Assembly (NCBI GenBank): GCA_030123565.1
Contig: CP126122.1
Span: 1,623,001 to 1,687,000 of the forward strand
Length of the DNA stretch: 64,000 nucleotides
Source: Nitrospira sp.
GTDB taxonomy: Bacteria; Nitrospirota; Nitrospiria; Nitrospirales; Nitrospiraceae
Direction: 5' to 3'
This document shows, piece after piece, positions 15,529-18,319 of this stretch. Each line of letters begins with the position of its first letter. Position 1 is the first letter of the stretch. Both the position numbers and the translations under genes were made by a program. The notes beneath the pieces are model-generated. The model made no database searches. It saw only the letters and a list, made by a program, of their open reading frames with translations, and was not told the origin of the DNA.

Positions 15529-16599
15529 ATGAAGAAGACCTCAGACTCCGCATCCCTCGGCCCGATTCTCGGTATCGAAACATCCTGTGATGAAACCGCC
15601 GCGGCATTGCTCGACGGGGAGGGACGTGTGCTGGCCAATGTGATCTCGTCCCAACAGGCCGTGCATGAGAAATTCGGAGGTGTGGTGCCGGAACTGGCAT
15701 CGCGGGCCCATATTCAGAATGTGGATTGGGTCACCAGGCAGGCCCTCGAAACAGCAGGACTCCGATGGCAGGACCTCGGCGCCATCGCCGTCACACAAGG
15801 TCCCGGCCTGGCCGGTGCGCTGCTTGTGGGCATCAGCTATGCCAAATCTCTCGCCTATGCCCTGGGCATTCCGTTGGTGGGCGTGAGTCACCTTGAAGGA
15901 CACATCGCCTCCGCCTGGATCGACGCCCCTTCCTTTCCTAGAGCCTGCGTGGTCTTGATCGCCTCGGGCGGACATACGCATCTCTTCCACGCCGACCAGG
16001 AGGGTGGTTTCCACCTCATGGGAAAAACCATCGACGACGCGGCCGGTGAAGCGTTCGACAAGGGTGCGCAGCTGCTCGGCCTCGGGTATCCGGGAGGACC
16101 CTTGATCGACAAGGCCGCTCGCGGCGGACATCCGACCGCCGTGCGGTTCCCCCGCTCACATGTGAGGACCGGACGACTGGATTTCAGCTTCAGCGGCCTC
16201 AAGACCGCCTTGCTCTATCATCTCCAACCTATGACTCCAACGATGATCGTCGACCAACAGGCCGACCTCGCCGCGGCCTATCAGGAAGCGATCGTGGACA
16301 TCCTGGTGCGCCAGGCTTTCGCGGCGGTCCGGCAGACCGGGGTTTCGGCCCTCGCCGTGGTCGGCGGCGTGTCGGCAAACTCCCGGCTGCGGGCCAGGTT
16401 GGCGGCGCGCGCCGCCGAGGAAGGGATTGCCTTGGGCCTGCCGGCCCTGTCCTATTGCACCGACAATGCGGCGATGATCGCAGCGGCCGGCCGGCAAGCT
16501 TTTCTGCAGGGGAGGGTGGCCTCGTTTGATTGCGAAGCGATGCCCGATATGGCACTCCCTTCATCCACCAACATCGGCACAGTCCGCCATAGGCAGTGA
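15529..16599 (+). CDS. tsaD: tRNA N6-adenosine threonylcarbamoyltransferase TsaD
   Basis: Transfers the threonylcarbamoyl group to A37 of ANN-decoding tRNAs (t6A synthesis, with TsaB/TsaE). The 356-residue ASKHA-fold protein starts ILGIETSCDETAAAL, has the metal-binding HxxxH in VSHLEGHIASAW (~residue 120), a glycine-rich IASGGHTHLF strand, and FSFSGLKTAL and GGVSANSRLR later. MKKTSDSAS at 15529 was chosen because it leaves the typical short lead before the conserved GIETSCDET; the frame extends upstream to 15373 without family similarity. No obvious ribosome-binding site precedes the ATG. Confidence 0.95.
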   Translation: MKKTSDSASLGPILGIETSCDETAAALLDGEGRVLANVISSQQAVHEKFGGVVPELASRAHIQNVDWVTRQALETAGLRWQDLGAIAVTQGPGLAGALLVGISYAKSLAYALGIPLVGVSHLEGHIASAWIDAPSFPRACVVLIASGGHTHLFHADQEGGFHLMGKTIDDAAGEAFDKGAQLLGLGYPGGPLIDKAARGGHPTAVRFPRSHVRTGRLDFSFSGLKTALLYHLQPMTPTMIVDQQADLAAAYQEAIVDILVRQAFAAVRQTGVSALAVVGGVSANSRLRARLAARAAEEGIALGLPALSYCTDNAAMIAAAGRQAFLQGRVASFDCEAMPDMALPSSTNIGTVRHRQ

Positions 16600-16624
16600 C
16601 GAACGATTACCAAGGAGCACGGCC

Positions 16625-18319
16625 ATCCCGACCGTCCATGGACATATCAGCGGCCTGAAGGCCAGCCACCTCTCGGCATTGGAGCGTTTGTATCGACGAC
16701 GCATTCCTTCCTCGGCCGTCATCACCCTAGAGTTGGCCCGCACGGCCTGCCAACTCACCAGAGAAATCAGACGCCCTATCGGGCTCCTCATCACACGCCG
16801 CGGAATCATCCAGCAGGTACTGGTCGGAGCGGGATGCGCCCCTACGGTTGAATCCCTGGCCAAGTTTCGCGTGGGGCCACATTCCCTCCGCGGCCTCCGG
16901 TTGATTCGCACCCATCTCCACGATGAACCGCTGAGCCAGGAGGACCTGACGCATCTGGCATTGCTGCGTCTGGATCTGATGGGTTTGTTGGGAGTGGATG
17001 ACGCGGGCGAACCGGCCGTGCTTCACCTCGCACACCTGCTTCCGCCTAATCAGCAGGGGCAAATCTGTCGAATTCTGAAGCCGGTCCCCTTCCACCATCT
17101 GGATCTCCAGTTCGATACATTCATCCACACGCTCGACAGCGACCTGCTTCGGTCGGACATCCGTCATGTCGTCGGCGGCGGCAAGGAATCGGCCATTCTC
17201 GTGAGCGCCTCATCCAAGAGCCGCGCGGAGCAGGAAGAGCATTTGGAAGAATTGAACGAGCTGGCGGAATCGGCCGGCATTCTCGTCCTGGATCGGGTGT
17301 TGCAGCGCACCCACGAGGACTACCAGCGCTTCTTGCTCGGCAAGGGGAAATTGAAAGAGGTCGTGATCCGCGCGCTCCAGCAGGGCGCCGACCTGTTGAT
17401 CTTCGACCAGGATCTGGCTCCGGCCCAGGCCCGCGCCATCTCCGAAGTGATCGACCTCAAGGTCATCGATCGCACCCAACTCATTTTGGATATATTCGCG
17501 CGACGGGCCCACACCCGCGAAGGCAAGGTCCAGGTGGAACTGGCACAACTCCGCTATCTCCTCCCACGGCTCTCCGGACACGGGACATCGTTGTCGCGCC
17601 TCGGAGGCGGAATCGGCACGCGGGGTCCCGGCGAAACCAAATTGGAAACCGATCGCCGCCGCATCCGCGACCGCATCGCCCACCTGGAGCGGGAGCTTGG
17701 CCACATCGCCCGTCATCAGGATCAACGCCGCTCTCGCCGTCTTCGGCATGCGCTGCCGATTCTCTCCATCGTCGGCTACACCAACGCCGGGAAATCGACA
17801 TTACTCAATACGTTGACCCACAGCCAGGTCGCGGCTCAAGACCGCCTCTTCGAAACACTCGATACGACCAGCCGGCGCCTGCGCTTTCCGCACGAGCGCG
17901 AAATCATCGTGACCGATACGGTCGGGTTCATCCGGGATCTTCCCAAGGACCTGGTCGGGGCCTTCCGCACCACCCTCGAAGAACTGCGGGACGCCGACAT
18001 GCTGTTGCACGTGGTCGATGCCACGGCCCACGACATCGACCTCCAAATCACTGCGGTCGAGACGGTCCTGCGCTCGCTCGACTTGGAGACGATTCCCCGG
18101 GTGCTGGTCTTGAACAAGTGCGACCGGCTCTCCGCCCACGAATGCCTCGTCCTCTGCCAGCGGTATCGGGCCATCGGCATCTCGGCCCTGCATCGGGACT
18201 CGCTGCGCCCCTTGATCACACATCTCGAAACTCTGTTGCCCGCCAACCCCATGCCAGGCGATCCGGCCGAGGATTCCGCATCGGTTTCCCGGAACCTGGC
18301 ACTTGCATCTCAATCCTGA
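16625..18319 (+). CDS. hflX: GTPase HflX (apparent ATC start)
   Basis: A ribosome-associated GTPase that splits stalled or stressed ribosomes. Of the 564 residues, the N-terminal ~190 form an extra domain, followed by the HflX subdomain (LDRVLQRTHEDYQRFLLGKGKLKE; RAHTREGKVQVELAQLRYLLPRL), the glycine-rich GGGIGTRGPGETKLETDRR linker, and a G domain with Walker A GYTNAGKST (~384-392), DTVGFIRDLP (G3) and NKCD (G4). Between the tsaD stop and a TTG inside the conserved start of the protein (16679) there is no in-frame ATG, GTG or TTG. An ideal AAGGAG (16612-16617) sits seven bases before ATC 16625, which therefore looks like the real initiator. The alternative ATG at 16526 lies inside tsaD and has no ribosome-binding site. 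Confidence 0.92.
   Translation: MPTVHGHISGLKASHLSALERLYRRRIPSSAVITLELARTACQLTREIRRPIGLLITRRGIIQQVLVGAGCAPTVESLAKFRVGPHSLRGLRLIRTHLHDEPLSQEDLTHLALLRLDLMGLLGVDDAGEPAVLHLAHLLPPNQQGQICRILKPVPFHHLDLQFDTFIHTLDSDLLRSDIRHVVGGGKESAILVSASSKSRAEQEEHLEELNELAESAGILVLDRVLQRTHEDYQRFLLGKGKLKEVVIRALQQGADLLIFDQDLAPAQARAISEVIDLKVIDRTQLILDIFARRAHTREGKVQVELAQLRYLLPRLSGHGTSLSRLGGGIGTRGPGETKLETDRRRIRDRIAHLERELGHIARHQDQRRSRRLRHALPILSIVGYTNAGKSTLLNTLTHSQVAAQDRLFETLDTTSRRLRFPHEREIIVTDTVGFIRDLPKDLVGAFRTTLEELRDADMLLHVVDATAHDIDLQITAVETVLRSLDLETIPRVLVLNKCDRLSAHECLVLCQRYRAIGISALHRDSLRPLITHLETLLPANPMPGDPAEDSASVSRNLALASQS

Follow-up and report, generated by a model that had tools for sequence, protein, structure and literature searches.

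Hereafter, the window is the whole 64,000-nucleotide stretch of Nitrospira sp. DNA that we analysed, which is part of a one-contig genome of 4.6 Mb. In it, hflX probably starts at the AUC codon at 16625, served by a Shine–Dalgarno sequence (SD); a start of the form AU plus any base except G (AUH) has been kept in this gene in two phyla, and output from it is probably low and would rise when initiation factor IF3 is scarce, in parallel with infC. Genes that start with AUU, AUC or AUA are thought of as rare exceptions. As a kind they are known, and hflX stands out among them in how deeply the start is conserved and in which gene carries it: a family of ribosome-acting GTPases keeps an AUH start at 220 of the 246 loci sampled in two phyla. 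The literature searched, which lacks most subscription papers, yielded no report of an AUH start for hflX, which is not proof. The features of the locus are collected in Table 1.

Table 1. Features of the tsaD–hflX junction, in positions of the window.
Feature	Positions	Strand	Remarks
tsaD (tRNA t6A transferase subunit)	15532..16599	+	From ATG 15532; TIGR03723, 404 bits for 15532-16596; upstream neighbour and ordinary-start control
TTG inside tsaD, rival hflX start	16526..16528	+	Sole in-frame ATG/GTG/TTG upstream of the ATC
SD AAGGAG	16612..16617	+	Window sequence; 7-base spacer to the ATC
hflX start codon ATC (mRNA AUC)	16625..16627	+	Aligned ATC in 27/27 genus loci
hflX, long form, 564 residues	16625..18319	+	Stop TGA 18317-18319; TIGR03156 match
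HflX N-terminal domain, ~190 residues	16625..17194	+	Not covered by the HflX matches among solved structures
TTG, first in-frame canonical codon downstream of the ATC, rival start	16679..16681	+	Window sequence

The hflX frame is open from just past TGA 16475 through its own stop, and the upstream gene tsaD ends with TGA 16597-16599. As the initial annotation had read them, AAGGAG stands seven bases before the ATC (window 16612-16627, AAGGAGCACGGCCATC), and no in-frame ATG, GTG or TTG lies between the tsaD stop and TTG 16679; the upstream codon inside tsaD that it had given as an ATG is in fact the TTG at 16526. The observation that hflX appears to start at an ATC with an SD is confirmed as real. 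The identity of the gene is clear from a score of 440.3 bits against TIGR03156 (GTPase HflX; curated cut-off 216.75) and from the order of its domains, PF13167 (GTP-bdg_N, residues 204-292), PF16360 (GTP-bdg_M, 294-372) and PF01926 (MMR_HSR1, 381-498). HflX splits 70S ribosomes according to the accessible part of PMC8327144, a function that we take here from the family.

We compared the start codon across relatives. Among the 28 same-genus genomes searched, 26 had a full-length or near full-length match and two (G012 and G024) had paralogue matches only. The aligned hflX start codon was ATC in 27 of 27 genus loci (the 26 relatives and the window's own), and the comparison with close relatives that the initial annotation had proposed thus returned a conserved ATC. 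With a profile of the N terminus, the start was located in 264 loci, or 246 distinct loci after 18 duplicates had been removed, and 213 of these read ATT, ATC or ATA at the first position of the profile. The 17 rows with neither AUH nor NTG at that position were checked up to two codons on either side, which gave a call for 15 and left 2 uncalled. The final count was 110 ATT, 78 ATC and 32 ATA, against 16 ATG, 6 TTG and 2 GTG (24 loci), with two loci lacking a call. By group, AUH starts were found in all 27 genus loci, in 137 of 148 loci from other Nitrospirota and in 56 of 71 from the phylum of the Desulfovibrio genome G205, in a sampling that is uneven and follows the draw of the tools. The first set held 99 genomes with a match, from which G012, G024, G031, G036, G053, G069, G083, G089 and G091 were left out as paralogues, fragments or contig ends; nine further genomes with a match were also left out of the locus set, as were G240, G257 and G299 (fragments), G228 (contig end) and genomes with weak paralogue matches only. 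In two loci of the 246, L234 and L235, there is no AUH or NTG codon near the start, and a plausibly placed ACG may be used instead.

The AUH start is not universal in long-form hflX, because one long form from Fusobacterium (L398, annotated as hflX) reads ATG. Among 14 short-form hflX loci from the Desulfovibrio phylum, several of them with uncertain calls, none had an AUH with an SD of at least five bases near the conserved start, and most had ATG, GTG or TTG close by. Two of the 14, L328 and L329, have no canonical codon near the expected start and may use ACG. Gene finders limited to ATG, GTG and TTG misplace AUH starts, so many of these proteins probably have incorrect N termini in databases.

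The profile derives from an alignment of this same family at the start, and stop codons and SD matches therefore matter as an independent check that the AUH is a start rather than an internal isoleucine codon. For 147 of the 220 AUH loci, the frame upstream runs back to a stop without passing an ATG, GTG or TTG; this stop is no more than 10 codons away in 92 of the 147, and in L110, L150, L198 and L242 it is the codon immediately before the AUH. Within the genus, 8 of 27 loci likewise lack any canonical codon from the upstream stop to the ATC. All but one of the 220 AUH starts (219) have an SD match of four or more bases ahead of them. For the directly aligned AUH codons, such a match was present in 212 of 213, compared with approximately 21% of 1,433 shifted positions, at which a match of at least five bases occurred in approximately 6%; SD spacing peaks at 5–7 bases. 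Initiation of hflX at ATC 16625, placed by the SD AAGGAG, is strongly supported by these comparisons of sequence.

The AUH start of hflX also looks selected. An SD of five or more bases stands before 176 of 220 AUH starts but only 1 of 24 ATG, GTG or TTG starts, and of the 10 ATG loci that aligned directly, 7 lack an SD match. One starred clade holds L111 and L119 (ATG, no SD) together with L112 and L121 (ATC, six-base SD), which is a swap of weak start and strong SD. The third base of ATN starts tracks gene composition (median four-fold GC of 0.44 in ATA genes and 0.77 in ATC genes). ATG starts are rare, with 16 observed against 70.9 expected from four-fold-site use in 236 rows, although the loci are related and both the Fisher and the composition figures assume independence, so the p-values are descriptive only. 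On a tree of 185 longer rows, we counted at least 33 changes within AUH and at least 13 between AUH and NTG, compared with 17 to 21 AUH/NTG changes after shuffling the labels (50 shuffles); these counts are minima on one tree, made with FastTree only and with long branches meeting.

As a control, the start of tsaD was ATG in all 23 readable genus loci of 26 rows, with the ATG lying within the 12 codons scanned in 8 and at the codon just before, as read from sequence, in 15. In the phylum set, with 25 readable of 30 rows, tsaD had ATG within 12 codons in 17, TTG in 3 and no start in reach in 5. A genome-wide habit of AUH starts was considered and set aside: in a crude screen of 464 kb (the window and 20 stretches of 20 kb, with 361 reading frames taken as genes), 2 of 361 frames had an AUH with an SD of at least six bases and no canonical start with an SD of at least four, and other codon sets gave 2 to 8, which indicates that the pattern is not common. 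The screen passes over hflX itself, owing to the SD-like match at TTG 16526; of the two frames that it picked out, L361 looks unlike a genuine gene. RNA folding over the hflX start showed nothing unusual (z of −0.23 and −0.70).

The gene for IF3 itself has a start of the same class. In 10 of 10 genus loci, the window's own genome included, infC starts at ATC with a six-base SD, and in seven of these (L289-L292 and L295-L297) an in-frame TGA lies two codons upstream of the ATC. The infC of the window's own genome (L283, G000:C1:4188320-4188526) appears to start at this ATC, with an SD of the GAGGTG type. Elsewhere in the order, the infC of family f3 apparently starts with ATG (11 loci), and hflX in the same genomes starts with ATT in 9 of the 10 loci fetched and with ATG in 1; the weak starts of hflX and infC are thus not strictly paired. 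The infC motif located the gene in 9 of 30 loci from the Desulfovibrio phylum, too few for a rate of start codons. The accessible part of PMC5472188 describes IF3 as repressing starts other than ATG, GTG and TTG, and the start of infC, ATT in E. coli and ATC in Streptomyces, as closing a feedback loop. A link to IF3 is made more plausible by the ATC start of infC in the same genus, and we infer that IF3 may control hflX.

Several known systems resemble this arrangement. As with hflX, infC (AUU in E. coli, ATC in Streptomyces and AUA in S. aureus, in IF3 autoregulation) widely keeps an AUH codon and a strong SD; both the conserved AUH at the start and the strong, well-spaced SD of genes of the infC kind are seen in hflX by comparison of relatives. 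Because hflX does not encode IF3, its control would be exerted in trans, not as the autoregulation of infC. In the portion of PMC5472188 available to us, sigR of Streptomyces has a GTC start repressed by IF3; like hflX, it does not encode IF3 and carries a start codon of a kind that IF3 rejects, but its codon is not AUH, it was viewed across Streptomyces rather than two phyla, and the IF3 effect was shown for sigR whereas for hflX it is inferred. In S. aureus, cvfC1 (AUU) and ccpN (AUA) have conserved starts directed by an extended SD, with AUU and AUA giving approximately 10% of AUG output, and as much as 30% for ccpN in rich medium (available text of PMC13009471). These genes share with hflX a conserved AUH and SD; their starts were mapped and measured, whereas that of hflX comes from sequence comparison, and hflX is ribosome-acting and unrelated. 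The AUU start of E. coli pcnB, as cited in the accessible parts of PMC1780047 and PMC13009471, limits output, as proposed here for hflX, in a different gene and lineage. For lepA, an AUU start was proposed in Borrelia burgdorferi and Bacillus licheniformis (PMC1780047, in its accessible part): it too is a ribosome-acting GTPase whose full length needs the AUU, but these are isolated cases from a survey, whereas hflX has AUH in most sampled long-form loci.

Non-AUG starts in bacteria yield formyl-methionine as the first residue. In the mechanism that we propose, the SD AAGGAG would place the ribosome on AUC 16625, hflX would be translated from there, and the first residue of HflX would be formyl-methionine despite the AUC. 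The long-form hflX of the two phyla keeps its AUH codon alongside a strong SD. AUH starts are in the class that IF3 rejects, so hflX output is probably held low; it would probably rise, alongside that of infC, when IF3 is short relative to 30S subunits. HflX splits 70S ribosomes and IF3 keeps the subunits apart, and both would thereby answer a shortage of free, IF3-bound 30S. If IF3 does control hflX, the abundance of a ribosome splitter would follow directly from the balance of initiation factors. An extension that we offer tentatively, with somewhat less than even confidence, is that hflX and infC may form a small, ancient regulon read by the start codon, in which a shortage of IF3 relative to 30S raises both the anti-association factor and the ribosome splitter without a regulator protein or RNA switch, and which would have persisted in long-form hflX from a time before the sampled phyla diverged.

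The main rival explanation accepts the AUH start as genuine and sees in it a fixed brake: too much HflX would be harmful, and the pairing of weak start and strong SD would hold it at a low, constant level with no response to IF3. We consider this rather unlikely. The comparison of start codons and SDs fits it equally well, and the lineages in which an ATG goes without an SD look like another route to low output. However, sensitivity to IF3 is to be expected of any AUH start, judging from the accessible part of PMC5472188, so a constant level would need constant IF3 activity, and the AUC start shared with infC suggests a common input.

Initiation of hflX at AUC 16625 must also be weighed against starts at other codons. 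It is very improbable that translation begins at TTG 16526 inside tsaD, with the ATC as an ordinary isoleucine codon. That TTG does have GGAGG (16511-16515) 10 bases upstream and an open frame, but relatives contradict it, because the stop codons described above leave no canonical codon before the AUH in 8 of the 27 genus loci and in most AUH loci overall, and because the SD precedes the AUH itself in nearly all of them. A start at TTG 16679, the first canonical codon downstream, is less probable still and was rejected in view of the relatives and of the modelled domain. At the aligned place, L008 has tta and L018 has ctg, and such a start would leave the SD at 16612 unused. As the initial annotation had stated, this TTG lies within the conserved N terminus of HflX, inside a domain that was modelled with confidence (pLDDT of 89.5 overall and 91 for residues 1-10). 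Because the domain is confident from its first residues, the TTG start would truncate it, deleting residues 1-18, which comprise a strand (4-6) and part of a helix (13-24). The chance that the ATC arose from an ATG through faulty sequencing or a private mutation is negligible, as no point was found in its favour and all 26 same-genus relatives with full-length matches, one-contig genomes among them, have ATC and none has the aligned ATG that the initial annotation had named as the sign of such a change.

The N-terminal domain that begins at this codon (residues 1-190) matched no Pfam family at E ≤ 10, HflX matches in the PDB start at residue 189 or beyond, and Foldseek returned no match to the model at E ≤ 0.001. 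With VIA-align, the best match was JAMM1 (Z of 7.3, rmsd of 3.5, 111 aligned), where a Z below 8 may reflect a common arrangement only; the 50 matches listed were mostly of the JAB/MPN superfamily. Several Nitrospira genomes contain a second HflX-like frame (L342-L347 and similar) that is absent from the window's genome; it is approximately 45% identical from residue 253 on, and an acidic stretch precedes this part. The model of the long-form N-terminal domain weakly resembles JAB/MPN folds, and an alignment of 62 homologues has H/R-T-H followed by S/T/N and D, with R in place of the first H in the window. We take this pattern to be reminiscent of the JAMM metal motif, with one spacer residue fewer.
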